Shown: positions 31,100 to 54,701 of the stretch, in pieces | Layout of the letters: the number at the start of each line of letters is the position of its first letter | Numbering within the stretch: the first letter of the stretch is position 1 | DNA from: Clostridiales bacterium | GTDB lineage: Bacteria > Bacillota > Clostridia > Christensenellales > Aristaeellaceae | Length of the DNA: 64,000 nucleotides | Assembly (NCBI GenBank): GCA_015056325.1 | Contig: SVGL01000003.1 | Span: 1-64,000 of the forward strand | Reading direction: 5' to 3' | The notes under the pieces: generated by a model | What the model was told of the DNA's origin: nothing | The model's input: the letters and a program-made list of their open reading frames with translations, nothing else | Database searches by the model: none | Made by a program: the position numbers and the translations under genes

Positions 31100-31132
31100 G
31101 CAGCCGCTTCGCGATGGCGAGGCGGCTTTGTG
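31100..31132 (+). terminator. Terminator after the amidohydrolase
   Basis: GCCGCTTCGC and GCGAGGCGGC pair over 10 bp with one G-U pair, around GATG, followed by TTTGTGATT. Confidence 0.7.
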
Positions 31133-31584: not shown

Positions 31585-34500
31585 ATGATGAAGAGACTCA
31601 TTTCCTTGGTACTGTGTGCGGTGCTGCTGCTGGGCTGCATGACCTTTGCGCAGGCAGAAACGCAGCAGACTAGCTCTGCTGTTGACATTGTGCTGCTGAT
31701 GGATCACAGCGGCTCGATGTTCAATGATAATGGCAATGACAAGGAAGGCTACCGCCTGGATGCTGCCCAGATGGTGATCGCGCTGCTGGGCAACAACGGA
31801 AGCCGTGTGGCTTTCGTGCCTTTTGCTGCCCGCGTTTATGAGGATGCGGATAAGGAGTTCACAACCATCCGCAGGCCGGAGGACTATAACGCCAAAATGA
31901 AGGAATGCGAACGCCTTCGCGCAAACACAAAAGGCGGAGCTGCGGGGGAGAACACCGGCGGCACCGACTTTGCCGAGGCGCTGGCGTATGCCTACAACCT
32001 GCTGGCGTCCCGCAGTGCCAGCGAGACCAATCAGCCCATGATTATCCTCCTGACGGACGGCGGATTGGAGATTGCGGTTAATAAGGGAACCCCCTCTGAG
32101 CAGCATTACCTGCAGAAGCGCTATTATGTGTGGAACGGGAATACCAGGATGTTTGACAGGACCGCGGAGAAGGTCAACGTTGCCCAGAACCGGACGCTGT
32201 ACAGGGCCAACCGGGCCTATTATGCAGAAGAGCTGCTGGATGAAGTGGTTCTGCGCTGCGCGGAAAGCGGATATCCGGTGTATTCTGTGGCGGTTCCGGA
32301 TGGCACGAAAACGGAGCATTTTGAGACGCTCCGTCAGATCTCCAACAATACGTATGCCGGTGAAGCGATTCTGATTACCGAAGGTCTGCAGCAGCTGCCC
32401 ACGTACTTTGGTAACATGTTCGCCGATCGAATTGGTTCCAGCGAGCTCAAGGAGCTTTATGCCAAGCCTGTTCCGGGTACTGAAAATGACTACGAAGTGG
32501 AGTTCGTGATCCCCAATGACTCCGTCATGGAAGCAAACCTCTTTGTGGCCAAGGATAGCATTGGCAGCAGCTACCTGGTGGATCCGGAGGGCAAGCGGGC
32601 GAATTCCGGCGGCGGCGTGACCATTCTGGAGTCCAAGAACTTCATTCTGTACAAGCTGACCAGCCCCAGCCCGTACGGCATTTGGAAGCTGCGCTTTACC
32701 CGTGTTGAAAAGCCCAATGCCAAGGATGCCAACGAGAACATCTCCTTTAATCTGCTCTATAACTACGATGTGGTTCTGCACGGTGCGGTGGCAAAGGCCG
32801 GCGCCTATGACAGCGACGGCACCTCTTTCGCCCGCGGCGATGAGCTGAAGTTCTCCGCCCGCTTCTGGGATAATCGCAAGAACGGCTACAGTGAAGACCG
32901 CACGCTTTATGATTATCCGGACGATCCCACTTCCAGGGCGGATGACGACTTCCAGATGAAGGCCACCTACCAGCTCTACCGCGTGGATGGCAACGGGAAC
33001 GAGTCCAGGGTGGATGGAAATAATACAAGCGGCACGCTGGCCGTCGAAGAAACGCCGCTCCAGTTCGCGGTGACCCTTGATATGAAGAAGATCAGGGAGA
33101 ACGACGGTTACAATGTCCTCCCTGAAGGCGAGTACTTCATGAAGCTGGATGTGGAAGGCTGCGGTCTGACCCGTGAAGTCAAGATCCCCTTCACACTGAC
33201 GGATACCCCCCCTTCCAACCATGTGAGCGAGATTGTTCTGGAGCATTATGTTGACCGTGAGGAAAACGACGATGTGCAGATGTTCTCGCTGGCCCAGTAC
33301 ATCATGGATGCGGATAACGACAGCCTGGTGAGCGAATTCGTCCAGACCTCTGGTACGGAGGTTGCAACGCTGACCTACAATGGTCAGACGCTGGTCTCCA
33401 CTATCCTGGCGGATGATCAGGGTATTCATCACTCCGGTACGGTGACGGGCAAGCTGAAGGTCAAGCAGACCCGGGACAATGATGAAACCTTGATTAACGT
33501 TACAGTCAATGTCATCTCTGCCAACGATGAGATGTACAACCGTTGGAACCTGCGGGCGACGGCAGACGGCAAGGCGACGGGCGCGGTGATCGACAAGGAC
33601 ACCGAGTTTGACATCAAGCTGGAGCTGCACAAGGCCCAGGAGCATGATGTTCTGGAGACGGATGCGGCAGAGCTGGCCAAGGTGGAAGCGACGATCCGCA
33701 TCATGAATGCCGACACGCATGAAAGCATTCCGAGCATCACCGTTGTGCCGGATGAAGGCGGCATCTTCACCTACACCCATACGACCGGTCTGAATGCGGG
33801 CGAATGGGATGTCACGATCGAACTGTGGCAGCGGGAACCCAAGCTGATTATCAAGACCGCAGAGACCAATTTCAAGGTGGAGAACCACGCGCCCGTTGCC
33901 CAGGCTGAGCCTGTGGAGATGACCATCAACTTCAATGCGCTGCCGGACTTCCTGTCCTTCCTGGGCACTGCTTCCACGGAGGAAGAACGCACGCTGGATA
34001 TGAGCACGTTCTTCACGGATGCGGATAACGAGACGCTCAACTATCAGATCGTGGCGGATGTGAACGAGTCGCTGCTCACGATCAATCGCGATGGCGCCAA
34101 GTGGGTGCTGAAGCAGGCCAATGGCGTGCGGTACCTCAATACGGTGAACTTCGAGGTCATTGCGTATGACAATGACGCTGCGGACTCCAACACATCGGTC
34201 AAGTTTGAGATCCATCTGGTGAGCCTGATGGATCTGTGGACCTACCGCGGCCTGCTGGGCCTGGCGGCGCTGGTGGCCTTCATCATCCTGGTCAGCATCA
34301 TCCGTCAGATCCGCAAGCCCAAGTTCCCCCGTGCGACCCTGGGTGTGCGCGAGGGCAACAGCGACTACGATACCAGCACCTACGAACTCATGCCCAGCAA
34401 GAAGCCTCTGCCCCTGGCGGCTGTCGTGATGACGGATACCGCTGCCAAGTTCGGCATCAGTGCCAATGCGCTGACCAACATCATGCTGGTGCCCGTCCGC

Positions 34501-34950
34501 TCCCTGAATGGCAGCATCGGCGTGCGCCTGAACAAGAAGATGGATGACGTGAGCGTGGCCCTGACCACCAAGAGCGTCGGCAAGGGCAAGAAGCCCGCGA
34601 TCTGGGTGCCTGGCGATTCGCTGGTCCTGAACAGCCGCAACAATACCACCGGCGCTGAGCTGAATGTCGTCCTCTTCCCGCCGGAGGCTCCCGTGCCCGG
34701 CGGCAACGTGGTGAACGAGGGTCCCTTCGACCTGGCGGGTGACGGCGACTTCGGGGGCTTCAACAGCGATGTGAACGCCTTTGGCGCCAACGATATGACC
34801 GGCTCCTTCGGCGGCCTTGCGCCCACGGATTCCTTCAGCGCCCCCGCCGCGAGTGACAGTGGCTTCGGCTCTTCCTCCAGCGACGACAACGGCTTCACCG
34901 AGAGCTTCCCGACCAGTGAGGAAAGTAAGGATGACTTCGGCGGCTTCTGA
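31585..34950 (+). CDS. Giant membrane-anchored vWA protein of the tubulin-like locus
   Basis: The product has about 1121 residues. It starts with a signal sequence (MKRLISLVLCAVLLLGC); LLGC could be a lipobox, though AQA-E just after could also be a signal peptidase I site. A vWA domain follows with an intact MIDAS, DHSGSM at residues 40-45, and LLTDGG later. The long extracellular part contains cadherin-like repeats with Asp-rich turns (MDADNDSLVSEF, FTDADNETLNYQI). A single membrane helix near residue 890 ends in IIRQIRKPKFPR, followed by a cytoplasmic domain and a low-complexity Gly/Ser/Phe tail ending DDFGGF. It probably links an outside ligand to cytosolic partners. AGGGAGG lies upstream; ATG 31588 is an equally good start. 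Confidence 0.85.
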   Translation: MMKRLISLVLCAVLLLGCMTFAQAETQQTSSAVDIVLLMDHSGSMFNDNGNDKEGYRLDAAQMVIALLGNNGSRVAFVPFAARVYEDADKEFTTIRRPEDYNAKMKECERLRANTKGGAAGENTGGTDFAEALAYAYNLLASRSASETNQPMIILLTDGGLEIAVNKGTPSEQHYLQKRYYVWNGNTRMFDRTAEKVNVAQNRTLYRANRAYYAEELLDEVVLRCAESGYPVYSVAVPDGTKTEHFETLRQISNNTYAGEAILITEGLQQLPTYFGNMFADRIGSSELKELYAKPVPGTENDYEVEFVIPNDSVMEANLFVAKDSIGSSYLVDPEGKRANSGGGVTILESKNFILYKLTSPSPYGIWKLRFTRVEKPNAKDANENISFNLLYNYDVVLHGAVAKAGAYDSDGTSFARGDELKFSARFWDNRKNGYSEDRTLYDYPDDPTSRADDDFQMKATYQLYRVDGNGNESRVDGNNTSGTLAVEETPLQFAVTLDMKKIRENDGYNVLPEGEYFMKLDVEGCGLTREVKIPFTLTDTPPSNHVSEIVLEHYVDREENDDVQMFSLAQYIMDADNDSLVSEFVQTSGTEVATLTYNGQTLVSTILADDQGIHHSGTVTGKLKVKQTRDNDETLINVTVNVISANDEMYNRWNLRATADGKATGAVIDKDTEFDIKLELHKAQEHDVLETDAAELAKVEATIRIMNADTHESIPSITVVPDEGGIFTYTHTTGLNAGEWDVTIELWQREPKLIIKTAETNFKVENHAPVAQAEPVEMTINFNALPDFLSFLGTASTEEERTLDMSTFFTDADNETLNYQIVADVNESLLTINRDGAKWVLKQANGVRYLNTVNFEVIAYDNDAADSNTSVKFEIHLVSLMDLWTYRGLLGLAALVAFIILVSIIRQIRKPKFPRATLGVREGNSDYDTSTYELMPSKKPLPLAAVVMTDTAAKFGISANALTNIMLVPVRSLNGSIGVRLNKKMDDVSVALTTKSVGKGKKPAIWVPGDSLVLNSRNNTTGAELNVVLFPPEAPVPGGNVVNEGPFDLAGDGDFGGFNSDVNAFGANDMTGSFGGLAPTDSFSAPAASDSGFGSSSSDDNGFTESFPTSEESKDDFGGF

Positions 34951-35010
34951 TGCCTGCGAAAGTCATAGGCGATAAGTGATCATATTTTCTTGAAAGGATA
35001 GGTGGAACTC

Positions 35011-38000
35011 ATGTCTCAAGTAAATGAACTGCAGAAGAACATCCAGCAGGACGAGCTGCTCGATATTTCTGTCGAGCGCGTGAAGAAGCTGCCGGTTCCT
35101 CTTCTGGTGATTGGCCTGGGCGGCACTGGTGCCGGCATCGTCAATACCATCAAGACGACTTTTGCCCAGCGTTATGTCCTGCCCAAGGATAAGAACGGCC
35201 AGAATATCCCGATCCCGGAGCATACTGCCTACCTGGTGGTGGATACCGACTCCAACGCCAAGGGATCCCTGGACAACAACGAGTTTGTCAACATCACCGT
35301 GCCCGGCCTGGCGGACATCCTGCACCCCGCCAGCCGTGACTTCAACCTCTCCCGCGCGGAGAATGAGTGGGTCAACGCCAACCTGAATGCTGCGGCTTCC
35401 GGCATGGGCGCGGGCACCTACCGTCAGTCCGCCCGCTTCATGCTGAACCGTCAGTACAATGCGGTCAGCACCGCCATCAAGGGTGCGCTGACCAAGATCA
35501 GCACCGTGCAGCATGGCGCTGCCGAGCGTCTGGGCCGTATTGAGATCGTGATCTGCACCGGCATCTGCGGCGGTACCGGCTCCGGCACCTTCATGGATAT
35601 CCCTCAGATTGTCCGTCATATCATGGCGACGGAGCCTGCGCTGTCCGGCCGTGATTACAAGATCACCGGCTACATCGTCATGCCTGACGTGTCCTTGATT
35701 CCCCTGGCGGGCAACCCTCTGGCCGACGCGCTGCGCATGAACGGCTATGCCGCCCTGAAGGAGCTGGACTTCTGGATGCAGGTGGGCGACCACAAGACCC
35801 CCTACACCATGCAGTTCACCGACGGCACCAAGGTTGACTGGACCATGCCCCCCTATGACAACTGCATCCTGATGAGCGGCCGCTCCGTGGAAGGCACCGC
35901 CTTCACCAACGCTGCCCGCGTGGTGCAGACCACCATCGCCGAGAACCTGCTGCACTACCTCGCCAATGAGATTCCTGCCAAGGATTCCAAGGGCGAAGCG
36001 CAGTACACCTACATCAGCTACGAAGATAACCTCAAGCAGACCGTGAACATCATGGCCAAGCGTCTGCCTGTGAAGTACGGCTACCGTGCCATCGGCGCCT
36101 GCTCCAAGCGCATCCCCAAGAAGAAGACCCTGTACTTCGAGGGCGTGCAGCTCTTCAATACCTTCCTGCCCATGCGCGATGAGTACGGCCGTCTGGCTCC
36201 CAGCGACGCCCTGCTCAAGGACGGCCAGAGCGTTGCCCGCGCCCAGGCCATCATCGGCAATGTGCAGCAGCTCCATGCCAACTTTGCCAAGGACCTGACC
36301 CTGCCCGGCTTCTGCAATGTGACCGCGGCGGACAAGCCCCGCATTGAGGCCATGCAGCAGATGCAGCAGCGTCCCCACGATCAGGAGAACATCAAGCCCA
36401 CCATGTGGGTGGACTCCATCGTGAAGCCTGCCGCCGGCGTGACCGCAGAGAACTATCTCCAGGCCGCCTGGAAGCGCTTTGAGGACTTCTGCGCCTCCGT
36501 GATGAGCAAGCCGGAGCTGGGCCCCTATGCCCTGCGCGACTACCTGGATCACCCCGACAAGGGCCTGATCAAGGAGCTGGAGGCTCAGGTGCTGTCCTGG
36601 CAGAACCTGGCCCGTAAGTTCAAGAATGATCTGACCCCCCTCAAGCAAGCCTGTACGGCTACCTGGCCGGACTTTGAGCATCCGCCGCTGCTGGGCCGCA
36701 CCAAGGCGATCGAGGCCTATCTGCAGAACCTGAACAACTACTACTCCGGCTTGCGCAAGACCGGCTTCATGGAAGCGCATGCCCGTGCCGCCCAGCTGCT
36801 GCTGATGCGCGTCAACGAGTACCTGACCCAGGGCCTCAAGCCCATGTGCAGCGACGTGGAGCGTCTGTACGACATGTTCAACGAGACGCCCGCTGACGAT
36901 CCTACCTTGGGCTCCGACGTGCTGGATGTGGAGATCCTCAAGCCCCGCATTGAGCAGCAGTTCGCCTCCAGCAACGAGAACAAGCGCATCACGCTGGCGT
37001 TCCTGAAGGCGTTGTGCCTGGAGTCTCTGAAGAATGTGCCCAACAAGGATTCCGGCACCTCCGGCGTGACCTTCACCTATCGCAAGGAAGGCCGCGAGAA
37101 CGTGCTGGACGTCATGCGCGACACCCTCAACGAGTGCTTCGACGGCATCAACAACCAGTCCCTGGATGCGCTGATGGTGCAGGCTGTGGGCGAGGATGTA
37201 GGCCTGCAGCAGGACTTCATGAAGGACATCGCCGACTCCGTGATGACCAGCGCCCATCCCCTGTTCAGCCAGGACGGCGCCAGCGCCGGCGAGGTCAAGG
37301 CCGACTATTCCTACCTCTCCGTGCCGGATAATGCGCCTGAGCATATCAAGTACTTCAACCAGATCCTTGCCGTTGAGCATGTCCAGGCCAAGGGCAGCTC
37401 CCTGCGCGACCACATCAACTGCCTCATGGCGTGGGATGGTCTGCCCATATACCGCTACAGCATGATGCAGGAGCTGCGCCAGGCGTATGCCAACGGCCTG
37501 GTGAAGCCCGAGGTCAGCATGGGCGTCCATCTGGTGTGGAACGGCAACAGCGACGCGGAGTACACCAACAACTGGTGCCGTCTGCCCGAGCCCCGTCCCT
37601 TCTTCTTCTTCTCTTCCCATGGCGATGCTGTGGAAGAGAATGCCTGGAACGAGGCCCGCGCCATGACCGAGCGTGCCATCAAGTGCGGCATGCTGGAGGT
37701 CAACACCAATAACATCGCGCCTGTGTTCAATCTGCATGTGTTCTGGACCGACATGCACCGCAATACCCCCGTGCCCGCCAACGTGCTGGCCAACCGTGTG
37801 CAGAGCATCCTGGACCAGAAGATGGATCCCGCGACCGGCGCGACCCTGACCCCCGATCAGAAGCTGGCGATGATCAAGGCCTACGAGGCAGAGTCCGTCG
37901 TCACCACCCTGGAGCCCGGCAAGTCCTCCGAGTGCATGGCGGCTTACCTGGGCCTGGTTGGTCAGGACATCGATCCCTGGGCCACCGAGGTTGCCATTGA

Positions 38001-38664
38001 TCCCATGCGCCGTGCCAAGGCCCAGCAGAACCACAAGCAGCTGTCCGAGCTGATGGCCGCTGCGGTGCTGAGCGCCAATCCCCGCCTGCTGCTGGTGCTG
38101 AAGAACCAGCTGGAGGGCTTCGAAGTGATTGCCAAGGCGAAGGACGAAATCGAGGGCCAGACCAAGATCTGGGCGCCCCGTATCGCCTATGCCGAGACCT
38201 ATGCCAAGATGATGGTCCATGGCCTGCTGCGCTTCTCTGCGGTTGGCGCGACCTTCACCGACGACATGGGCACCATGACCCCTGTGCTCCAGGAGGTCCT
38301 GGTGAAGGACGACCTGAAGGCTCAGAGCGTGTTCACCAAGGTGGGCGCTTATCTGGCCGACCTGCCCGAGAGCAACCAGGTCCGTATGCTGCTTGATCAT
38401 CAGGTGCAGATGAAGGAAGCCGAGTTCGCGCAGAAGGACCTCACCGGTCTGCTGACCAAGGAAGACTGCACCACTGGCATCGCCATCTGCGACCGCATGA
38501 AGACCCTGGTGGAGAACGAGCTGCGCCAGAAGAAGGCTGCCCTGACCCAGCTGGGCGCCGATGTGGCCACGCTGAACAAGTGCATTGCCATGCTGACTGC
38601 CGTGACGAACTTCTTCGAGCAGCGCAAGGGCCAGCTGACCTTCGCCATGCAGATGATGATCTGA
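35011..38664 (+). CDS. Tubulin/FtsZ-like GTPase (FtsZ-like family 1 type)
   Basis: A 1217-residue cytoplasmic protein. Its N-terminal third has the tubulin-superfamily nucleotide-binding layout: a first-loop motif LLVIGLGGTGAGIVN (residues 31-45), an acidic strand YLVVDTDSN, and the glycine-rich T4 signature GICGGTGSGTFMD (near 185-197). The remaining ~850 residues are mostly helical without a recognised fold. This matches Pfam-type tubulin-like proteins and the large FtsZ-like family described by Makarova and Koonin (2010), not FtsZ itself, which is about 350-400 residues. It is expected to bind GTP and polymerise. It sits next to vWA and GTPase genes, as in that family. ATG 35011 is favoured over the GTG at 35002. 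Confidence 0.88.
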   Translation: MSQVNELQKNIQQDELLDISVERVKKLPVPLLVIGLGGTGAGIVNTIKTTFAQRYVLPKDKNGQNIPIPEHTAYLVVDTDSNAKGSLDNNEFVNITVPGLADILHPASRDFNLSRAENEWVNANLNAAASGMGAGTYRQSARFMLNRQYNAVSTAIKGALTKISTVQHGAAERLGRIEIVICTGICGGTGSGTFMDIPQIVRHIMATEPALSGRDYKITGYIVMPDVSLIPLAGNPLADALRMNGYAALKELDFWMQVGDHKTPYTMQFTDGTKVDWTMPPYDNCILMSGRSVEGTAFTNAARVVQTTIAENLLHYLANEIPAKDSKGEAQYTYISYEDNLKQTVNIMAKRLPVKYGYRAIGACSKRIPKKKTLYFEGVQLFNTFLPMRDEYGRLAPSDALLKDGQSVARAQAIIGNVQQLHANFAKDLTLPGFCNVTAADKPRIEAMQQMQQRPHDQENIKPTMWVDSIVKPAAGVTAENYLQAAWKRFEDFCASVMSKPELGPYALRDYLDHPDKGLIKELEAQVLSWQNLARKFKNDLTPLKQACTATWPDFEHPPLLGRTKAIEAYLQNLNNYYSGLRKTGFMEAHARAAQLLLMRVNEYLTQGLKPMCSDVERLYDMFNETPADDPTLGSDVLDVEILKPRIEQQFASSNENKRITLAFLKALCLESLKNVPNKDSGTSGVTFTYRKEGRENVLDVMRDTLNECFDGINNQSLDALMVQAVGEDVGLQQDFMKDIADSVMTSAHPLFSQDGASAGEVKADYSYLSVPDNAPEHIKYFNQILAVEHVQAKGSSLRDHINCLMAWDGLPIYRYSMMQELRQAYANGLVKPEVSMGVHLVWNGNSDAEYTNNWCRLPEPRPFFFFSSHGDAVEENAWNEARAMTERAIKCGMLEVNTNNIAPVFNLHVFWTDMHRNTPVPANVLANRVQSILDQKMDPATGATLTPDQKLAMIKAYEAESVVTTLEPGKSSECMAAYLGLVGQDIDPWATEVAIDPMRRAKAQQNHKQLSELMAAAVLSANPRLLLVLKNQLEGFEVIAKAKDEIEGQTKIWAPRIAYAETYAKMMVHGLLRFSAVGATFTDDMGTMTPVLQEVLVKDDLKAQSVFTKVGAYLADLPESNQVRMLLDHQVQMKEAEFAQKDLTGLLTKEDCTTGIAICDRMKTLVENELRQKKAALTQLGADVATLNKCIAMLTAVTNFFEQRKGQLTFAMQMMI

Positions 38665-38685
38665 TCCCTGTTATTTCATACGCCA

Positions 38686-38712
38686 CCCGACACAGCATTT
38701 TGCTGTGTCGGG
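38686..38712 (+). other. Intercistronic stem-loop after the tubulin-like gene
   Basis: CCCGACACAGCA and TGCTGTGTCGGG form a perfect 12-bp stem with a three-base loop. No U run follows, so it is unlikely to be a simple terminator. It may be an mRNA processing or stability element that sets the relative amounts of the tubulin-like protein and the downstream products. Confidence 0.6.
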
Positions 38713-38747
38713 GGCATTCCATTTCTTGATACAGGAGGTATCCTGCC

Positions 38748-41285
38748 TTGCCTTTCACACCGCATAACATCAGCGCCATCGTTCTGTATGGCAAGAAATC
38801 CTGTAACCGACTGCTGGAGTTTCTGAATCACTGGCAGACGATCCTGGTGGACCATGCGTGGGATCGCTATCTCTTTTTGTGCGTTACGGCCGAAAATGAA
38901 GATTGGCAGTTCCCCGGAGAGGGCGATATCACTCCTGGTACGCAGGAGCTGCTCAACAAGCAGATCGTGCGCTGCATGCACATCAAGCTCAAGGCCGATC
39001 AGCCTCAAACCTGGATGATGCCGACCAATTTCCTGGAGGATCTGGGCTTCAAGCTGAGCATCGGCAAGGTGATGGTGCATGTTCTGTGTGATGACCTGAG
39101 CACTGCGCCGCCTGCGGAAGCTGCCATTTCCCTGGCGGAATCGGCGGTGAACACGCTTGGCAGGGGCAATGTGCACTGCCTGTACTACCTGATGCTGCGG
39201 GATCATCTTGCGGCCCGCAAGCAGCAGAAGAAGCTGGTGCTGGAAATCAGCAAGCGTCAGCCCGAGGCCATTGTGTACCTGCTCAGCAACGTGGCGCAAG
39301 ATGGCGCCCGTCTGCATAAGTACGAGATCCGGCGTGCAGCCATGTGTGAGATTCTGGTGGCTTCTGACGGCAGAAGACACTACCATCCGCCAATGGTGTA
39401 TTCTCTGGGCTATACCAGCCTGAACGCCAACGACCAGGAGCTCCTCTCCCTTCGCCGCAACGCCATTGCCAACAAGCTGCGGGAGCATTATGAGGAGCCC
39501 ATTACCAAGCTGGAAGCCTGGAACATCCTGACCATGGAAACCGGTCAGGCCCCCCATGAGTTCAATGATTTCACCATCCCCAGCGCTGTGACAGCCTGGG
39601 TGGAGAGCATTGCCAACAAGTTCGTGATCAGCCCGAAGAATCGCGAATTGGAAAACCTTCGCCTTCTGTCCGGCATTACTACCCCTGAAGCTGCGGTTGG
39701 CCTGACAGAGGCATGCAAAAAGTTCTTTGATGTGAATATGACAGCCCGTACCGACATTGCCCTGCGCAGAAAGGTGGATAACCACATTGCCAATGTGGTT
39801 GCCAGGCTGCGCCAGTGCATCAACATGCAGGGCTTCCCCCTTGCGATGCTGCACAGCATGATGGACGCGCTGAAGAATATAGACAAGAAAAACGATCAGC
39901 AGATTGTTGTGGCTCTGCCCAAAAAGAAGATCTTCCAGCCCAAGGATGAGTATCTCAGCCAATGCGCACACCTGGTAGCAGAACAGGTGCGGACGGTGCA
40001 TGTGTCCCGCGCAGCAGCGAAGGTCGCGGCTTGCCTGGCCGTCGGCTTCAAGCGCGTGGAGAATATCATCGAGAAGGTGCAGAGCGGCGACAATTTCGCT
40101 CATCTGCTGACGGAGCATACGGTGCTGGCCGCTGAGGAGGTCAACCTCCAGGGCAAGTACCCCAAGTACTCCGCTGCCATTGCAGATACCATTCACGACG
40201 GCGCGCTGCACCTCTTCGGTAAGGACTGGCTGCAGAGCGCGGGTACCATCTATACCGAGGATTTCAAGGTGGATGCGGCTGCGGTCCGCAAGCTGATGGA
40301 GCAGGGCGTGAACGTGCTGCACAAGCATATGCCCAACGGCTTCAACACCACCTTCATGGATGCGCTGCACACTGAGTTTGATACGGATACCGCCATGAGC
40401 GCCTTCCTGGATCATTACCTCTTCAACAGCAGGCGCCATATGTTCAACTGTCCCTTCATCACGCCCTCTACCCTGGATGACGACATCATGTACTATGTGG
40501 ATGATGATCTGGTCAGGATGCCCTGGGTGGCGGCGCAGGGAGACAAGGCCATCGTGGCCAACAACGATAACATTGAGAAGCTGGCCTTCGTGAAGCTGAA
40601 TCAGTCGCTGGAATGGCTGGCAAATCAGTGGCCGGGCGAGAACCGCTACTTTGGTGAGCATGATGACCGAATTGGCGGTATTGGCGGCACCTGGATTGGT
40701 GACAGCGTGGGCGGCAGCAAGGCCAGTTATGCGGCCTACACGCCGGAGGCCCCCAAGGCAGCAGCCGGAACGGAGGGGAATCCCCGCAACATCCACCTGG
40801 TCCGCAACGGCGACAGGTTCCTGCTTTGCTGGAACTGGGAAGCAGGCGTCGAAGCGGTGCTGGTATCCATCAACGGCCAGCATGCTGTACCGATGGCTGC
40901 GGGCACCTACAATCTCTCGGGCGGCATGGATGTGACCGACAGCCTCAAATTTGGCCGCAATGAGTTCGAGCTGAAGCGCAAGAACCTGGCGCCCTACGGC
41001 AAAGTCAGCCTGTGCGGCAAACAGTACCCGGTCAAGTTCAAATTTGTGTCTTCCCCCAAGGGCGGAGTTCAGCTGAAGTTGGACGGCCGCATCCCCCCCA
41101 ACACATCGCTCCTGCTGGGCGAGTGCACCGCAAAGGATACCTACTGTTTCTATCCCGTGGCGGCCAGAGGTCTGACAGGCGCCGTCAACTACGATGGTCT
41201 GATGCTGATGGGCACCTATAAGCTGATGGTTTCCCCGGAGGATAAGTTCCCGCTGGTCAATCCGGTGCAGGATATCAGCCTTTGA
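38748..41285 (+). CDS. Large soluble protein of the tubulin-like locus, unknown fold
   Basis: An 845-residue protein without signal or membrane segments, so cytoplasmic. The first ~130 residues look alpha/beta (ISAIVLYGKKSCNRLLEF, KVMVHVLCDDL). The centre is a long helical region, and the last ~180 residues are strand-rich (NIHLVRNGDRFLLCWNW, YPVKFKFVSSPKGG), like an immunoglobulin or fibronectin module. I do not recognise a family. The start is a TTG at 38748, supported by AGGAGGT at 38733-38739; no ATG with a site is nearby. Its place between the tubulin-like protein and the GTPase suggests an adaptor for one of them. Confidence 0.7.
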   Translation: MPFTPHNISAIVLYGKKSCNRLLEFLNHWQTILVDHAWDRYLFLCVTAENEDWQFPGEGDITPGTQELLNKQIVRCMHIKLKADQPQTWMMPTNFLEDLGFKLSIGKVMVHVLCDDLSTAPPAEAAISLAESAVNTLGRGNVHCLYYLMLRDHLAARKQQKKLVLEISKRQPEAIVYLLSNVAQDGARLHKYEIRRAAMCEILVASDGRRHYHPPMVYSLGYTSLNANDQELLSLRRNAIANKLREHYEEPITKLEAWNILTMETGQAPHEFNDFTIPSAVTAWVESIANKFVISPKNRELENLRLLSGITTPEAAVGLTEACKKFFDVNMTARTDIALRRKVDNHIANVVARLRQCINMQGFPLAMLHSMMDALKNIDKKNDQQIVVALPKKKIFQPKDEYLSQCAHLVAEQVRTVHVSRAAAKVAACLAVGFKRVENIIEKVQSGDNFAHLLTEHTVLAAEEVNLQGKYPKYSAAIADTIHDGALHLFGKDWLQSAGTIYTEDFKVDAAAVRKLMEQGVNVLHKHMPNGFNTTFMDALHTEFDTDTAMSAFLDHYLFNSRRHMFNCPFITPSTLDDDIMYYVDDDLVRMPWVAAQGDKAIVANNDNIEKLAFVKLNQSLEWLANQWPGENRYFGEHDDRIGGIGGTWIGDSVGGSKASYAAYTPEAPKAAAGTEGNPRNIHLVRNGDRFLLCWNWEAGVEAVLVSINGQHAVPMAAGTYNLSGGMDVTDSLKFGRNEFELKRKNLAPYGKVSLCGKQYPVKFKFVSSPKGGVQLKLDGRIPPNTSLLLGECTAKDTYCFYPVAARGLTGAVNYDGLMLMGTYKLMVSPEDKFPLVNPVQDISL

Positions 41286-41318
41286 TCACAGCAGATTAAC
41301 GAAAGAGAGGCCAAGAAT

Positions 41319-42803: not shown

Positions 42804-42833
42804 TAATCCCTTGATAGTATGAGGTGATCGTGT

Positions 42834-46181: not shown

Positions 46182-46220
46182 TCTGCTGGCGCACAAGGAT
46201 GAATGGAGGAAGAATCTGCT

Positions 46221-46673
46221 ATGTTTGACAAGGAACCCAATTGGTTTGCAGCTGGCGCAGGGGTAGCGTATGTTCTGGCCTTCCTGTTTTTGCCGCTGTA
46301 TACCTGTATCGGCCTGGTGCCCTTTACGGGCATGGCGCTGCTGGAGAGGGCGCCTGTGGTGGTGTTCCTGCTGATCTGCGGATTGCTGATGATTGCCAGC
46401 GGCCTGCTGGTGGAGTGGAGAATCAGCCTGGGCATCGGTGCAGTCAGCACGCTGCTCACTCTGATCTTCGGCTTGGTTGGCAGCAGCGTGGTATCCAACG
46501 GTTTACCCACTGAGATGGGCTATGGCGCGGTGATTTGCATCGTGCTGGGTGTTGTCTACTGCGTGCTGGAGCTGGTGATGGGCAATGTGCGCAAAAAGAA
46601 GATCCAGGCACAGCTGTGGGATTCCCAGGATGGGCAGGGCGCCCAGGAGTTCTCCTCCGTGGATTTCTTCTGA
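46221..46673 (+). CDS. Small four-helix membrane protein ending in DFF
   Basis: A 150-residue protein with about four membrane helices (WFAAGAGVAYVLAFLFLP, VVVFLLICGLLMIASGLL, ISLGIGAVSTLLTLIFGLVG, VICIVLGVVYCVLELVMG), then a short basic-to-acidic cytosolic tail ending SSVDFF. Family not recognised. ATG 46221 is preferred over 46203 because GGAGGAAGA lies 8-11 bases before it. It is the first integral membrane subunit after the soluble core and could recruit the cytosolic proteins through its tail. Confidence 0.65.
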   Translation: MFDKEPNWFAAGAGVAYVLAFLFLPLYTCIGLVPFTGMALLERAPVVVFLLICGLLMIASGLLVEWRISLGIGAVSTLLTLIFGLVGSSVVSNGLPTEMGYGAVICIVLGVVYCVLELVMGNVRKKKIQAQLWDSQDGQGAQEFSSVDFF

Positions 46674-46716
46674 TTCCCTCTCCATAGAAGCATTGTGATT
46701 GTAGGAGTTGGCTGCT

Positions 46717-49700
46717 ATGCAGAAACATTGGAAGATGATTGTTGCGCTGTTGCTGGCGCTCATGATGCTGATGTCCTCCGTTGGTATGGCGGAGGATGGC
46801 GTTGGCGTGCCTGCCGGAAATGAAACTGGCGTGACGGAAGATGCGCCTGGCGAGAAAAACGCTGAGGGAGAAGCAGCTGCGCCCGTAGTGACGGCGGCTC
46901 CTGCCGCCGGTACGGTGGAGGAAGAAGGGCAGGGAAATGCTGCCCCTCCCGCACAGGGTGATGCAGTGGAAAACCTTGAAACGACGGCGACGCCTGCCCC
47001 GGTAGTGACGGTTGTTCCTCCTGCGCAGCCCACGCCGGAAATCTCGGAGGCGCCCACGGGCGAGCCTGATAACGGCGCCGCGGAGGGAAATCCTGCTGAG
47101 GATGAAGCGACGGCAACGCCGGACGCCGACCTGGATGCCTCCATTGAGATTGATCCGGGCGAGGCGGAAACTGCCCCCACGCCTGAACCCACGAAGGCGC
47201 CGCCGGAGCGTCCCTTGGGCCGCGAGACCTGGGTGGTCATGAATACCAGCATGCGGGATATGACTGACACTCGTGTAGTGGCCGCCAACCTGATGGCGAA
47301 GTTCCTGCTGGCCCGTGCCGTGGCGGATAACGCACCGGTGGGTGTGTTCATGATGCGCAAGGCTACTCCGGAGATTTATCGTGGGCATGTCAAGAATGAG
47401 GATGATTGGGCGCAGCTTATGGAAACCTTGGCTGATGCGGGTTTCAACCGCCATGAACACGGTGCAATCTATGAACTCGCAGAGATCATGGAAGCGCTGG
47501 ATGGCCAAAGCATGAAGGATAAGGAACTGTGGCTGCTGTTCAACCAGGCGAAGGTCGAAGGTACACTGCAGCGTGCGACAACCGTAAAGCGTGTCCTGCA
47601 ATCCGAAGGCTTGAAAACAACAATCGTCCGCATTCAGAAAAGCGATGACAAGCTTGACAAGAAGGAAGCTTGGCTGGACGACAAGATTCTTGCAGACGTC
47701 GTGGGCGATATTTCAGCCCAGGCGCTGTATCATGATACGGTGATTAAGGATCCCATCACCACGGCTATGGACGTCTTCGGGCTGAACCTGCTGGCTCCGC
47801 TGACGACGATCAGCCTGAACGAAGAGGGCGTCTGCACTTGGACCCACAAGGGCATGGATACCCTGCTGGTGATTGATACCGATCAGAAGGGCGTGAAGGT
47901 CACCGCCGGCAGCGATGTGCAGGCGGGGGGCGCGTTCCCTGTTGTGATCCCGGTGAGCAATGAGCAGTGCATGGTGCTGCTGCGCGGCGCCAATCCTGGC
48001 ACCTACCTTATTGACGGCCAGGTGAATGGCCTGACCGTGGCCTACAAGATTGATCCTGCTGTGGCCAAGCCTATTGTGCAGGAAACCCGGACGGAAGGCG
48101 AGCCCTGGGTTTGGTATCTGGAGGATCAGACGCTGCGGGTCAGCGTGAATCTGCCCCAGGTTCGCCCCGGCGATCTGGGCAAGAGCGTTTGCATCGTGCG
48201 GGAGCAGGAGCCTGTGGTTGTGCCGGAGCCGATGGACGAAACGATGCCGGATATGACGACCGATGAGGAAAGCGGCGAGCTGGTTGCCAAGGAAGGCCAG
48301 CCGGCTCAGGCTGCTGAGGAAGACCTGGATCAGTCTGGCGAGGCGTTGCCGGAACAGACCGAAGAAAAGATGGTCTTTGTCACCGTGCCCCAGGATCGGA
48401 TTACGGAGATCTCCAGTGGCGAGAATGGTCATGTATGGGAGATTGTCATCCCCCGCCAGGAGCTGGGCAAGGGCAAGATCTGCTTTGAGTTCAATGTGAA
48501 GGGCTTTGTCATTCAAAGCGATGTGTACGAGTTCGAGGTCGTGGATCGTCAGCTGGAGTGCAGCGGAAGCAATGCGGCCAGTCTGAACTATTACTACAAT
48601 GTGCCTGGTCTGGAAGAAGAGCCCATCAGCGTGGAGCTGGCCCCCTATTTCTACAACCCTGACCAGCAGACGCTGAACTACAATGCCGTGTTCAATACCA
48701 CGGAGTATGTCATCGAGGATGGCGTCTTCCAGTATCACCGCGGGGAAACCACGGAGGACAAGCGCTGGTTCCTCGAGGTGGACGACGGTGTGTCCGATCC
48801 CGTTGAGTTCACCGTTGCGGTGGAGATGGTCGATTTCATGGCCGCTGCGGCCCAGTGGAAGGCTGCTCTGAATGCCGTGAACTATGAGGTGACCCTCGGT
48901 GAAAAGACGGAGATCGCCTTTGTTCTGCCGGCGGAATACGCGGCGTTCTATCAGGACGTCCGGACACAGTACCCCGAGCTGCCGGAGGAGCTGACGGAGG
49001 CGCTGAAGATCACCGCTGTGCTGACGGACGGCCGCTATGAGTCTGGCTTTCCCCAGCAGGTTGTGCTGACCAAGCAGGATGACGGCAGCGTGCTTGGCAC
49101 GGTGGTTATTCCGCCCTATGAGTCGGAGGACAGCGGCAGCGTAGTCTTCTATGTGGACGTGCTGGGCGAAAGCATTCCCGAGCAGAAGATCGTGGAGGCA
49201 TGCACCATCAAGGTGCCCAATGATAAGCCGGCCCTGGCGAATGCCGCCCTGAAGGCGCTGACGTTCAAGGTTGGCATCCATGGTGCGCCCGACGCCCGTG
49301 AACCGCTGACCTTTGCAGCCATCAACGATGCGCAGAAGGAAGACGCGGTGCTGCTGCCTGAGCCCTTTGTACCTGCGCAGCTGTTTGTCGATCTGATCCA
49401 CCTGAAGGACGGTATGACCATGACCATTGCGGTGGATCAGCCGGAGCTGGTGCGCCTGATGATCGTGAACGCGGAGGATGCCTCCGAGGAGACCGGCGCT
49501 GCCCTGGAACCGGTGGAGGCAAATGGTGCAGGCGAGTGGAAGCTTGACTGCATTGCGATCGAACAGACCTATGTGCTGCAGATTCTGGATGAGGGCACTG
49601 TGACGGTCACCATCAGCGCGAATGATGGTCAGTTTGATGGCGAAGAGTCCATCACCTGGACGTTCCAGGTGTACTCTGTTTACGACCTCATCCTGCTGAT

Positions 49701-50145
49701 CATGATCATTTCCGCATCCGTGTTGACGGTGCTGATCATTGTGCTGCTGGTGCTGCGGCAGATCAGGAAGCCCTCCTTTGCCCGCTACCACAGCGTGATG
49801 CATATGCGCATGTGCACCCAGTATTCGCCCAATGGCCCCGAAGCATGGGTGCCCATGGACGTCTATGGCAAGAAGGAGACGGATCTGGCGAAGCTGTTCA
49901 TTGCCTGCCAGCAGACGCCTGTGACCAGCCTGACGATGGATGTGCTGGCGGATGTGGCCATTCAGCCTGGCAAGCGCCGCAGCTACCGCATCGTGCTGGG
50001 CAAGCGCGCAGAGCACCTGAACATCACAGTGAATAACATGGCACAGGCCACCAATAAGCCTGTTTCCTTCGATCAGGAACAGATGGTCAATGTCTATGCG
50101 GACGGTAATGAAGTGCTCTTCTTCATGATTTCCTCGGGCAGCTGA
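46717..50145 (+). CDS. Giant membrane-anchored protein with a degenerate vWA-like domain
   Basis: A 1142-residue protein with a signal peptide (IVALLLALMMLMSSVGMAED). A Pro/Thr/Glu-rich linker of about 140 residues follows, then a domain with vWA topology in which the MIDAS site reads MNTSM instead of DxSxS, so it should not bind metal in the usual way. Long strand-rich extracellular modules come next. One membrane helix near residue 1000 ends in VLRQIRKPSFAR, almost the same juxtamembrane sequence as the 31.6-kb vWA protein, followed by a ~125-residue cytoplasmic domain. The two look like divergent paralogues, one metal-competent and one not. Start at 46717 with TAGGAG at 46702-46707. Confidence 0.75.
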   Translation: MQKHWKMIVALLLALMMLMSSVGMAEDGVGVPAGNETGVTEDAPGEKNAEGEAAAPVVTAAPAAGTVEEEGQGNAAPPAQGDAVENLETTATPAPVVTVVPPAQPTPEISEAPTGEPDNGAAEGNPAEDEATATPDADLDASIEIDPGEAETAPTPEPTKAPPERPLGRETWVVMNTSMRDMTDTRVVAANLMAKFLLARAVADNAPVGVFMMRKATPEIYRGHVKNEDDWAQLMETLADAGFNRHEHGAIYELAEIMEALDGQSMKDKELWLLFNQAKVEGTLQRATTVKRVLQSEGLKTTIVRIQKSDDKLDKKEAWLDDKILADVVGDISAQALYHDTVIKDPITTAMDVFGLNLLAPLTTISLNEEGVCTWTHKGMDTLLVIDTDQKGVKVTAGSDVQAGGAFPVVIPVSNEQCMVLLRGANPGTYLIDGQVNGLTVAYKIDPAVAKPIVQETRTEGEPWVWYLEDQTLRVSVNLPQVRPGDLGKSVCIVREQEPVVVPEPMDETMPDMTTDEESGELVAKEGQPAQAAEEDLDQSGEALPEQTEEKMVFVTVPQDRITEISSGENGHVWEIVIPRQELGKGKICFEFNVKGFVIQSDVYEFEVVDRQLECSGSNAASLNYYYNVPGLEEEPISVELAPYFYNPDQQTLNYNAVFNTTEYVIEDGVFQYHRGETTEDKRWFLEVDDGVSDPVEFTVAVEMVDFMAAAAQWKAALNAVNYEVTLGEKTEIAFVLPAEYAAFYQDVRTQYPELPEELTEALKITAVLTDGRYESGFPQQVVLTKQDDGSVLGTVVIPPYESEDSGSVVFYVDVLGESIPEQKIVEACTIKVPNDKPALANAALKALTFKVGIHGAPDAREPLTFAAINDAQKEDAVLLPEPFVPAQLFVDLIHLKDGMTMTIAVDQPELVRLMIVNAEDASEETGAALEPVEANGAGEWKLDCIAIEQTYVLQILDEGTVTVTISANDGQFDGEESITWTFQVYSVYDLILLIMIISASVLTVLIIVLLVLRQIRKPSFARYHSVMHMRMCTQYSPNGPEAWVPMDVYGKKETDLAKLFIACQQTPVTSLTMDVLADVAIQPGKRRSYRIVLGKRAEHLNITVNNMAQATNKPVSFDQEQMVNVYADGNEVLFFMISSGS

Positions 50146-50172
50146 TCAGGATGTATTACAGGAGATGATCTC

Positions 50173-51552
50173 GTGACAAATGATGAATGGAACCTGGACT
50201 CAGCCAACGATTCTGTTTCCAATGGATGGGATCTGCCTGTGCCTCAAACGCAAAACGTGCCTCAGGCGACGAATATCAACAGCGGCTTTCAGCCAGAGGC
50301 CAGGCGGGTGGAAAAACTGCGCGGCCCCTGGCACTGGGCGCTGACGCTCCTGGCGCTGCTGATCGTGGGCGGTCTGTCCTTCCTGATGGCTTACCTGACC
50401 AAGGACATCGAGAAGCGCCCGGCACTGCTGATGGGCCTGATCTTCGCGGTTCCGATGGCGGCCATGTTCCTGGCCAGTCTGCTGCTGGAGCAGCGCACCT
50501 GTGCCATGACGCCCAGCTTCCTGCGCAAAACCCAGGCGATCATTGCCCTGGTAGCCGTGGTGGCAACCTTTTGCGTGGGCACGCTCTGTGACTGGATCTA
50601 CCTGGAGAGTTACGCGACCAAGTCAGAGTACCGCACGGTTTTCGTGCTGGACAAGAGCGACTCCATGGGCGGCGGTGTCGGTTCGAATGACGAAAAGCTG
50701 ATCAAGGCCATGGAACCGGTTCTGGAAGGCATGTCGCCTACGGAGGAAGTGGGCTTGGTGCTGTTCGAGACGGAGGTGCTGGATTATACACCGATCAGGC
50801 CGCTGGGGGACAACAATCACGGCGTGAACCTGATGAAAACCATCCGGGATACAGCTCCGAGAGGCTTGACAAATTTCACTGCAGCCCTGGATCAGGCGAT
50901 TGCACTGATTGACAGCCATCAGGCCAGCCGTGCGGACGATATGCAGTATCGCATCATTTTCCTCACGGACGGCGATGATACAGTAAATATTGCCGATAAC
51001 ATCGAACGAATTACAAATACCTGCAAAAACAAACAGATTACCGTGCATGGCGTTGCATTCAGCGCGGCGGGCGATCTGAATAGGCTGAGCATGCTGATCG
51101 GTGCCACGGGCGGACAAACCGTACGCGCCGATGATATGGATCAGCTGATTGAAGTGATGACTGTCCTGACCAAGAACGATGCGGATCTTCTGCGCTCTGG
51201 TCACAAGGACGCCAACATCATGACCGCCATCATGCTGTGCCTGGAGGGCATTGTCATCGGCGTGGGCCTGTGGCTGATGCTGAGCGTGCACGGCCAGTTC
51301 CGTGTGCAGGCCATCCTGTCCCCCCTCATGGGTGTGGCTGCCCTGGTGCTGCTCAAATATGCCGGGTTTACTGCGGAGGCAGATTTCTGGTGGATCATTG
51401 AGGGCGTTGCCTTCTCCTTGCTGGGCATCGTCTTCATGACCAAGAACCGTTTGCTGAACAGGAATGAGGAGGACAAGCCGAAGCAGAATGCATCCCAGTC
51501 GCCTCAGAATCCGCAGGCACCCTCCGTGAACATCCCTGATTTCGACTTCTGA
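50173..51552 (+). CDS. Polytopic vWA membrane protein
   Basis: A 459-residue protein that starts with GTG (GGAG at 50161-50164). The N-terminal cytosolic tail holds GWDLPVPQ. Three membrane helices follow (residues ~55-150), then a vWA domain with an intact MIDAS (DKSDSM near residue 160), FLTDGDDT near 262 and a late GLTNFTAA threonine loop. Two or three more helices near 360-430 and a tail ending IPDFDF complete it. This topology recalls BatA/BatB-like vWA membrane proteins, which cooperate with MoxR ATPases, but no MoxR gene is present. It is probably the membrane hub that connects the giant single-pass proteins. Confidence 0.85.
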   Translation: MTNDEWNLDSANDSVSNGWDLPVPQTQNVPQATNINSGFQPEARRVEKLRGPWHWALTLLALLIVGGLSFLMAYLTKDIEKRPALLMGLIFAVPMAAMFLASLLLEQRTCAMTPSFLRKTQAIIALVAVVATFCVGTLCDWIYLESYATKSEYRTVFVLDKSDSMGGGVGSNDEKLIKAMEPVLEGMSPTEEVGLVLFETEVLDYTPIRPLGDNNHGVNLMKTIRDTAPRGLTNFTAALDQAIALIDSHQASRADDMQYRIIFLTDGDDTVNIADNIERITNTCKNKQITVHGVAFSAAGDLNRLSMLIGATGGQTVRADDMDQLIEVMTVLTKNDADLLRSGHKDANIMTAIMLCLEGIVIGVGLWLMLSVHGQFRVQAILSPLMGVAALVLLKYAGFTAEADFWWIIEGVAFSLLGIVFMTKNRLLNRNEEDKPKQNASQSPQNPQAPSVNIPDFDF

Positions 51553-51571
51553 CAAGATAGGCTGTGAGACA

Positions 51572-53524
51572 ATGGCCAGACGGAAAAATGATCAAAATGA
51601 CTGGGGCCTGAGCGATGATATGACCCAAAGCTCACCCAGTGCCTGGGGTGCCGGCAATCAAGCCGGGACCTCTGGCTTTGGCGGGGATGACTGGGGCTTA
51701 CCCCAGGTTCATTCCCCCGAATCCTCAAAGCCCCGGCCCGGTGCAGAAGGCATCGACTGGGCCCTTGACAAAGGCGGCCCGCCCATGAATTCCCCCTCGT
51801 TCTGGGGCAATGGCGGCGGCATCAGCCCCCGTACCGCGCGCCGCCTCACGCTGGCAGGCGTGGTGCTGGCAGTTCTGATGATTGCGCTGACGCTGGTGTT
51901 CTTTGTGTCCGGAAAGACCGATTATCTGGACGGCCAGGTGAACGTGCGGCAGCAGCAGGAAGACAGCCGTTTCAAGCTGAATGTGTCATACAAGCTGGAG
52001 CAGCTGCAGCCTTCGTTGGCGTATGCGGCAGGCTTTATGATCTCGCCAGAGGGTGAGCTGCCGGTGGCTGTCAGTGATCCGGTGTTCATCACAGGCGTGA
52101 CATCCTATCAGCTGCAGGAAGAGATTACCATCATGCAGGAGGGTAACTACCGGCTGCTGATGTACTACTATCCGCTGACTGATCCTGTCATGCGTACCAC
52201 CAAGCCCCAGCTGCTGCAGCTGCGGTACACGGTTACGCCCCAGGTGACCCCGCCGCCTGATGAGACCCAGTGGTACGATGCATCCACGCCCACACCCAGC
52301 CCCAGTCCGCCCCCGACGCCAACCCCGACACCCACGCCCACGCCGACGCCTACCCCCAGTCCTCGCCAGACGCCTAAGGTGAGCGATCTGCCCACGGTTG
52401 TGCCGGCAACGCCTACGCCGTCCCCGTCGGCGCTGCCCACGGCGCCCTCTGCTGCTCTGTTCAGCACTTACCCGCTGAACACCCGTTACTATTACTTCCA
52501 GATGACGGACAATGAGAAGCGCCTCTTCAGCGAGATGTATGACGCGATGGCAGCCTTCGCATCGAGTGTGGAGCTGAAGGGCAGCTATACGCAGGAGGAG
52601 TTCAAGCGGGCAAGCTTCGTGCTTGAATTCGATTGCCCGGAGATTCTCTACCAGGCGTCCGAGGATGGCGCACGGATCAGCTACCACTACTGGAGCTCGA
52701 CAGGGAAGCTGTCCAGTGTGGAATTCGTCTATTCGATGACCAAGGCAGAGGCGGACCGCACCTTTAACCAGGTGATGGACAAGATCCGCAGCATGCAGCG
52801 GCAGCCGGGCTTCGGTGCGACGGATTTCAGCAAGCAGTACACCATCTACAAGTACCTGATCCAGAATAACTATTACGATAAGGAGAAGGACTTCTGCGCG
52901 ATGGCCAACAGCGCCTGGCTGCTGGGTTACTCGAAGTGCTCGGGCTATACCCGCGCGCTGAACCTGGCGCTGCGCTACTATGGCATCCAGTGCTGTGAAA
53001 TCTGGGGCGATACCTACGATAATGGTGTGATATCGCCGATATCCCATCTGTGGACGGGAATCAAACTGGATGGCTCCTGGTACCATTGCGACGCTACCTG
53101 GGATGACCCGATCTCGGATGACCCGAACTATGATCCCTTTGCCCGGAGTGTGCCGGTGCTGCCCTACCTGAACCTGAATGACGACCGGATGATGCGTGCC
53201 CGTTCCATTCACCCGAATGTGATCTTCGATGTGCCCACCTGCTGGAACACCCAGTACAACTACTACAAGACCATTGGCGCGCTGATCCCTGCGGGCAGCG
53301 ACGCAAAAACCAGCGTACACAACGCACTGACGAAGGCCTATCAGAATGGGGACAACTTCTTTGCCATGTCCTTTGAGAGCGCCAGGGATTACCAGACCGT
53401 GATGGCCTCCCTTGTGGAGTATCTCAAGAGCTGGCGGTACGGTTCAACCAGGTACAACGGCTGCAGCTGGACCTACAAGGCTGAGGCCAACCTGCTGTAT
53501 GTGTACAATATTGGATTCCGGTAA
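51572..53524 (+). CDS. Membrane-anchored transglutaminase-like protein
   Basis: A 650-residue protein. The N-terminal ~85 residues are cytosolic, disordered and contain repeated short motifs (NDWGL, DDWGLPQ, IDWAL) like the WDLP of the gene before. One membrane helix (LTLAGVVLAVLMIALTLVFF) follows, then a strand-rich outside module, a Pro/Thr repeat linker near residues 230-290 and a transglutaminase-like domain. Its catalytic triad is visible as YSKCSGY (Cys ~456), ISHLW (His ~491) and CDATWDDP (Asp ~507). Such domains cross-link or cleave proteins or peptides outside the cell. It ends the core operon, before a terminator. The binding site before ATG 51572 is weak. Confidence 0.88.
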   Translation: MARRKNDQNDWGLSDDMTQSSPSAWGAGNQAGTSGFGGDDWGLPQVHSPESSKPRPGAEGIDWALDKGGPPMNSPSFWGNGGGISPRTARRLTLAGVVLAVLMIALTLVFFVSGKTDYLDGQVNVRQQQEDSRFKLNVSYKLEQLQPSLAYAAGFMISPEGELPVAVSDPVFITGVTSYQLQEEITIMQEGNYRLLMYYYPLTDPVMRTTKPQLLQLRYTVTPQVTPPPDETQWYDASTPTPSPSPPPTPTPTPTPTPTPTPSPRQTPKVSDLPTVVPATPTPSPSALPTAPSAALFSTYPLNTRYYYFQMTDNEKRLFSEMYDAMAAFASSVELKGSYTQEEFKRASFVLEFDCPEILYQASEDGARISYHYWSSTGKLSSVEFVYSMTKAEADRTFNQVMDKIRSMQRQPGFGATDFSKQYTIYKYLIQNNYYDKEKDFCAMANSAWLLGYSKCSGYTRALNLALRYYGIQCCEIWGDTYDNGVISPISHLWTGIKLDGSWYHCDATWDDPISDDPNYDPFARSVPVLPYLNLNDDRMMRARSIHPNVIFDVPTCWNTQYNYYKTIGALIPAGSDAKTSVHNALTKAYQNGDNFFAMSFESARDYQTVMASLVEYLKSWRYGSTRYNGCSWTYKAEANLLYVYNIGFR

Positions 53525-54700: not shown

Positions 54701-54701
54701 C

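Follow-up and report, generated by a model that had tools for sequence, protein, structure and literature searches.

A nine-gene locus of a Clostridiales bacterium encodes a Tubulin_2 protein, a predicted pseudotubulin and predicted vWA surface proteins, and looks like a divergent branch of a predicted bacterial system

We describe a run of nine genes in a 64,000-nucleotide stretch of DNA (the window; G000:C20:1-64000) from a Clostridiales bacterium whose genome (G000) comprises 3.06 Mb in 63 contigs. All nine are open reading frames (ORFs) on the + strand at 31585..53524, just where the first-pass annotation of the window had placed them. From gene 1 to gene 9 they are separated by 51, 83, 33, 30, 21, 34, 27 and 19 bp, with 156 bp between gene 9 and the next gene. 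Gene 1 starts with an ATG at 31585 that is preceded by a ribosome-binding-like GGGAGG; upstream lie a terminator-like hairpin (31102-31127) and a promoter-like site (31329-31357), the counts of both kinds of element being near chance. Accepted Pfam matches place vWA domains in genes 1 and 8, Tubulin_2 in gene 2 and a transglutaminase core in gene 9, while genes 3, 5, 6 and 7 gave no Pfam match above cut-off and none of the nine proteins exceeded the cut-offs of NCBIfam. Together with a DO-GTPase2-type gene 4, these matches support the earlier view of the locus as a tubulin-family protein accompanied by vWA proteins and a TRAFAC-type GTPase.

A survey of gene neighbourhoods, which the first-pass annotation had proposed, demonstrates that the core of this arrangement recurs. 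A six-sequence tubulin alignment, scanned against a named genome collection, returned 12 loci; the scan leans to close relatives because exact peptides were required. These loci all belong to metagenome-assembled genomes titled as Clostridia, Clostridiales or Eubacteriales; sheep rumen, sheep duodenum and water buffalo cecum appear in three of the titles. Every one of the 12 has, behind the tubulin gene and in its orientation, first a gene encoding 832-856 residues and next the GTPase gene. The protein in this third slot matches gene 3 by phmmer in eight loci (E 1.5e-96 to 5.9e-20) and was assigned by position in the other four. A gene 1 match lies upstream of the tubulin in 10 of the 12, with gene 8 in between in L039; the upstream protein of L044 has no Pfam vWA match, yet carries an aligned DFSFS motif (L045 left out). 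Directly behind the GTPase gene, a gene 5 match stands in all 10 loci whose contig reaches this slot, seven times by phmmer, and a profile built from these seven homologues and the window protein finds the other three slot proteins, those of L043, L044 and L045 (E 3.5e-20, 1.6e-4 and 3.3e-4). The gene 6 slot holds phmmer matches in L034, L035, L036, L039 and L041 and a 152-residue hydrophobic ORF in L038. Gene 8 was found in all five loci where its place is visible and gene 7, by phmmer, in four of the five; the gene 7 slot of L034 contains a 1268-residue protein without a match. Two tandem tubulins occur in each of L036 and L041, and four copies of gene 8 lie at the end of the operon in the genome of L038. 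Gene 9 adjoins the operon in two of five visible loci, following gene 8 in L041 and facing gene 7 in L039; in L038 it is on the opposite strand at a distance of 4.3 kb, and the genomes of L034 and L036 carry it on a different contig.

Beyond this group, a GTPase match is found in seven canonical-like loci (L064, L071, L072, L073, L087, L088 and L092), which keep the order with differences. Eight further Tubulin_2 loci from more distant genomes (L033, L066, L068, L070, L089, L090, L091 and L093), two of them on contigs shorter than 6.5 kb, show no GTPase match nearby, and the tubulin alone therefore does not imply the operon. With its core order recurring in 12 of 12 loci, the nine-gene run is a real unit beyond chance. 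Pairwise identities of genes 1-5 correlate (r 0.90-0.96), and those of genes 7 and 8 do so less (0.42-0.88), in a comparison that took in the window and seven loci (six in the case of gene 1) but not L040 or L042-L045; common descent alone would yield such correlations. Divergence is fast, with median identities of 0.19-0.22 for genes 3, 5 and 7, the value for gene 7 (0.19) being the lowest of the seven genes measured.

Gene 2 (35011..38664, +) encodes a protein of 1217 residues with a Tubulin_2 (FtsZl1-type) GTPase domain (Pfam PF13809; E 2.7e-47, 162 bits against a cut-off of 27) and a long C-terminal region. Its T1 (G[LI]GGxG) and T4 (GxTG[SA]G) loops are kept in 21 of 21 aligned tubulins, tandem and canonical ones included, and the stretch aligned with T7 reads E[DN]NL in nine of the 12 tubulins of the window's group (window, C11 copy and L034-L041). 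Judged by sequence, gene 2 is a member of the Tubulin_2 (FtsZl1) family that has retained its GTP-binding loops. The neighbouring gene 3 (38748..41285, +) encodes 845 residues for which a tubulin fold is predicted, with a helical insert and, C-terminally, a beta domain; structurally, its model is matched best by 2bto_A (BtubA). Neither T1 (GxGGxG) nor T4 (GGTGSG) is present in any of 13 slot-3 proteins, one partial string (GAQTGA) occurring in L043. By its predicted fold, gene 3 would belong to the tubulin/FtsZ superfamily and would have lost the GTP-binding loops; counterparts of it in slot 3 also stand in canonical loci. The first-pass annotation had listed two giant soluble proteins here; the predicted tubulin fold of one of them, gene 3, had gone unrecognised.

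Other tubulin-related genes were seen outside the operon. The source genome carries a second Tubulin_2 gene (G000:C11:83632-86137, -; equivalent to L017:13630-16174), 57% identical to gene 2 and split in two frames, and no match to the other operon genes was found in the 20 kb around it; it looks like a decaying orphan copy. In nine of 60 relatives, proteins of ~620-770 residues give weak Tubulin_2 matches around the T4 loop (L020:9920-11818, with similar ones in G002, G005, G010, G012, G017, G030, G031 and G000:C24). The one such protein scanned also has a Tubulin match (4.4e-5), and these proteins possibly form a separate FtsZ-like family.

Gene 4 (41319..42803, +) encodes a DO-GTPase2-type GTPase with two N-terminal zinc ribbons. 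All 15 aligned gene 4 proteins have two CxxC pairs, GK[ST], DxxGE and [TNS]KxD, so that both the Walker B glutamate and the N-terminal zinc ribbons, which are DO-GTPase2 features, are found in the window's protein. Against the DO-GTPase2 model (Pfam PF19993, cut-off 27) gene 4 scored on both sides of the cut-off, with 28.8 bits in a whole-genome search and 26.8 bits when the protein itself was scanned. Elsewhere in the same order, one genome has three DO-GTPase2 matches over the cut-off within 7 kb (G099:C1:91264-98217). Gene 5 (42834..46181, +; 1115 residues) follows in the slot of GAP1, and we call it a GAP1-slot protein rather than GAP1 because no GAP1 profile finds it. Its AlphaFold2 model (pLDDT 84.2, pTM 0.53) shows a beta domain (2-103), an alpha/beta middle with a helix-strand-helix-strand-strand unit (165-273) and a long, all-helical remainder, a predicted layout compatible with GAP1-N, -M and -C. 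A bridging locus, L092 (G814:C2), combines two Tubulin_2 genes, a slot-3 protein, a DO-GTPase2 and a GAP1-slot protein that matches GAP1-M near the cut-off (21.8 and 25.2 bits, cut-off 24).

The remaining genes encode predicted membrane and surface proteins. Gene 1 (31585..34950, +) would be a single-pass surface protein with a signal peptide, a vWA domain (VWA_2, 3.6e-9) bearing the metal-ion-dependent adhesion site (MIDAS) DHSGS, an Ig/cadherin-like region, one transmembrane (TM) segment and a cytosolic tail of ~210 residues; hydrophobic segments lie at both ends, and of 12 aligned proteins, among them the window's and two canonical ones, 11 keep the MIDAS pattern DxSxS. Gene 8 (50173..51552, +) has six TM segments and a vWA domain (VWA, 1.5e-14) with a MIDAS (DxSxS in seven of 10 aligned proteins) between TM 3 and 4; the domain is predicted to lie outside because it comes after the third of six segments. 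The predicted topology of genes 1 and 8 thus puts the vWA outside and the tail inside. Gene 7 (46708..50145, +) is likewise predicted to be a single-pass surface protein, with a signal peptide, one TM segment and an Ala/Pro/Glu-rich linker. It matches gene 1 by phmmer (5.2e-6 within the window, 3.4e-14 between two homologues) over the membrane-proximal stalk, the TM segment and the start of the cytosolic tail, similarity that marks it as a paralogue of the membrane-proximal part of gene 1. Its former label of pseudo-vWA protein was not confirmed: Pfam sees no vWA in it, and DxSxS stands at the aligned place in none of six proteins, the window's included (one N-terminally cut row is a gap). The small membrane protein and the transglutaminase reported earlier were both borne out, gene 6 (46203..46673, +) having four TM segments predicted from hydropathy and gene 9 (51572..53524, +) a Transglut_core match (8.8e-8). 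Gene 9 is predicted to be membrane-anchored through one TM segment, with a Pro/Thr linker; the Cys-His-Asp triad is intact in five of five aligned proteins, and we regard it as an accessory part of the operon. At L094 (G944:C5:4000-23999), the end of the operon is surrounded by four gene-8-like multi-TM vWA paralogues, and a relative of gene 9 lies in this cluster. At L094:12475-15204 and L096:2473-5154, gene 8 copies have as neighbours large proteins in which CarboxypepD_reg beta domains are repeated, a zinc ribbon being present in one of them; these are possible further surface parts.

The system is sparsely distributed, in counts that each include the window's own genome. Gene 2 as query matched five of 297 genomes of the order, three of them strongly. 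Among 60 relatives, 10 have a Tubulin_2 match of some kind and three have one above the cut-off, a level reached by none of 17 other genomes of the genus (68-96% complete). Tubulin_2 was found in 11 of 299 genomes of the phylum (nine above cut-off) and 14 of 341 of the class (11 above cut-off), and GAP1-M in seven of 299 phylum genomes. Of 331 class genomes, 11 have a DO-GTPase2 match above the cut-off, and Tubulin_2 is present in four of these as well (G000, G814, G866 and G894).

Around the operon, the window holds genes of other kinds. Directly downstream (53681-56776, +) are genes for three proteins: one with a phosphodiester glycosidase domain, which had no match in the related loci annotated, one that matches Lgt weakly and one with RCC1 repeats. 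A single 834-residue ORF (14137-16641, -) fuses a xylose-isomerase-like TIM barrel to an AMP-binding enzyme, and two proteins of one layout (18827-21091 and 23011-25299, +) each fuse helix-turn-helix, cupin and AMP-binding domains.

We propose, giving the idea an even chance of being right, that the operon encodes a cytoskeletal relay which spans the envelope, is regulated by GTP and is allied to the tubulin theme of firmicute DO-GTPase/GAP1 systems. The proposal starts from components, motifs, predicted fold, predicted topology and co-conservation, from which we infer contacts, switching, polymerisation and purpose. Extracellular vWA/Ig heads would bind a wall polymer, a peptide or a neighbour, and the change would be relayed through TM segments and cytosolic tails to a switch formed by genes 4 and 5, with gene 5 acting as a large adaptor in the role that GAP1 has in canonical systems. 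At the membrane, this switch could license a gene 2 scaffold to assemble or disassemble. Gene 3, built in as a GTP-dead partner or a cap, might keep scaffold growth limited and localised, and genes 6 and 9 may serve as membrane and extracellular accessories that alter the surface. The output might be a protective suicide of the cell or a remodelling of its shape or surface. A more specific version, which we put forward tentatively and consider unlikely, makes genes 2 and 3 an obligate tubulin/pseudotubulin pair whose assembly is gated by outside vWA receptors through the dedicated GTPase, the GTP-dead subunit setting polymer length or polarity. If this pairing is true, the operon is a bacterial machine by which a signal from outside the cell acts through the membrane on a tubulin cytoskeleton. 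Should the relay itself be right, the operon offers a concrete protein pair for asking whether sensing outside the cell is tied to a tubulin polymer in bacteria, and proteins that have no accepted Pfam match would be identified as a family of pseudotubulins, represented in slot 3 of canonical loci too.

Several points weigh against the relay. Every function assigned to the operon is an inference of ours, contact between the gene 2 and gene 3 proteins included. No acid is conserved at the T7 position across the wider Tubulin_2 family, so hydrolysis-driven dynamics of gene 2 are unproven, and gene 3 did not align significantly with tubulins in whole-alignment hhalign comparisons. In protein scans, gene 4 (26.8 bits, E 5e-6) and one of two homologues (24.1) fall just below the DO-GTPase2 cut-off, the other homologue reaching 27.7. 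Gene 5 and the three homologues scanned had no Pfam match and hence no recognisable GAP1 domain; searches of 15 genomes with GAP1-N2 and GAP1-M (E up to 10), in which one to 12 candidates per genome passed the prefilter, had no hit at any gene 5 locus. The hhalign comparison of gene 5 with GAP1 gave 0.2% probability, a score reached by two of 100 shuffles but by 13 of 40 in a larger trial. The GAP1 models of Pfam may be too narrow and the power of these tests limited, because they also miss the slot protein of L088, which is preceded by a clear DO-GTPase2 (38.4 bits) and shares its locus with vWA and tubulin matches. Finally, FNIII and YtkA domains had no match in the nine proteins at Pfam E values up to 1, the beta-rich region of gene 1 included.

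Other explanations have to be set beside this one. That unrelated same-strand genes lie together by chance is refuted by the neighbourhood survey, and we take it to be practically negligible, given an order kept in all 12 tubulin-scan loci and, with differences, in seven canonical-like ones. A biological conflict system of the kind described by Kaur et al., antiphage or directed at kin, would sense an invader and answer with death or dormancy through a GTPase switch. Kinship with systems predicted as conflict systems (PMC7159879, as far as its text was available) speaks for it, as do the speed at which genes 3, 5 and 7 have diverged (median identity 0.19-0.22) and a patchy spread (Tubulin_2 above cut-off in 0/17 other genomes of the genus; strong gene 2 match in 3/297 of the order, the window's own included). 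However, Pfam and NCBIfam recognise no enzymatic effector domain in the nine proteins besides the transglutaminase-like domain of gene 9, the sole PADLOC match among them is a weak REase_I (E 0.034), and a scan of ten flanking proteins showed metabolic, envelope and repeat functions but no defence genes. Genes 1-6 are not swapped among genomes the way effectors are, and the gene 2 search produced no plasmid match and, in phage records, one weak partial match. We judge a conflict role improbable on this evidence, while giving it real weight.

The same constant core composition without effector domains, and flanks without defence genes, would fit a surface machine. Following Makarova and Koonin 2010, the operon could remodel the membrane or cell surface, a dedicated tubulin bending or organising membrane and wall while vWA and transglutaminase domains act outside, for example in attachment to feed particles in the gut. 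Several of its membrane proteins have predicted outside domains, the order of genes 2-4 is constant as in a structural machine, the transglutaminase triad is kept in 5/5 proteins, and sources of relatives include sheep rumen, sheep duodenum and water buffalo cecum. Gene 9, however, adjoins the operon in only two of five visible loci, membrane activity has no direct sign, and so patchy a spread is unusual for a shape determinant. Remodelling is in our estimate a doubtful reading, one that we nevertheless keep in view.

Pairs of different tubulin-fold proteins made together are known from Prosthecobacter, whose BtubA and BtubB both bind GTP. The present operon resembles that pair in having two tubulin-fold proteins per system, one of them predicted, and in BtubA being the top structural match of gene 3. 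It differs in that gene 3 lacks GTP loops and has a large helical insert and a C-terminal beta domain.

The available text of Makarova and Koonin 2010 (Biol Direct 5:33, PMC2875224) describes FtsZl1 with vWA, GTPase and OmpA partners. Our data uphold the kinship with this family that had been suggested from the window, including the absence of OmpA. Shared features are a Tubulin_2 protein with a long C-terminal region, a vWA with MIDAS, TM partners and a diverged P-loop GTPase with TxKD, in their loci sometimes fused to a cysteine-rich domain. In contrast to those loci as far as the available text describes them, the nine genes have no OmpA Pfam match (a partner in several genomes there) and no protein kinase, and only the present operon has a pseudotubulin, a transglutaminase and large surface proteins. 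The accessible part of PMC9871819 treats Tubulin_2 proteins as divergent FtsZ-like outliers. In the literature on these systems, seen in part and with subscription journals mostly outside the search, we found predictions and no experimental study.

The closest counterpart is the tubulin theme that Kaur et al. 2020 (PMC7159879) describe for firmicutes; in the text available, it combines two tubulin genes and two vWA genes with a DO-GTPase and GAP1-N2, in systems with a predicted role in conflict. Further features of the theme are a C-terminal coiled coil on its tubulins, a polar extension at the C terminus of GAP1 and a YtkA domain fused to one of the vWA proteins, and GAP1-N2-type systems include an FNIII-repeat protein. 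DO-GTPases there have a Walker B glutamate, those of the GAP1-N2 type usually with two zinc ribbons, and a transglutaminase-like domain figures as a rare peptidase domain in another system. With this theme the operon shares a GTPase with two zinc ribbons and the Walker B glutamate, a large protein directly downstream of it, membrane proximity, two tubulin-domain genes (gene 2, and gene 3 by its model) and two vWA genes (1 and 8), one of them multi-TM with the vWA predicted outside. The first-pass annotation had raised a conflict system of the GTPase/GAP1 kind, and this gene content makes that a lead, although the GAP1 identity of gene 5 is unproven; its view that the extra parts were undescribed together does not hold, since a description from 2020 already unites tubulins, DO-GTPase and GAP1 with two vWA proteins. 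Unlike the theme, the operon has no detected GAP1-N2/M in gene 5 and no FNIII or YtkA match, its GTPase and gene 5 precede genes 6-9, and genes 6, 7 and 9 are extra; loss of GTP loops in one tubulin, as in gene 3, is not stated in the available text. We file it as a divergent relative rather than a member of these systems because the tubulin, vWA and GTPase motifs were found and GAP1, FNIII and YtkA were not. The operon looks like a divergent branch of the bacterial system predicted in 2020; if so, that large system extends to a lineage where divergence had hidden it.

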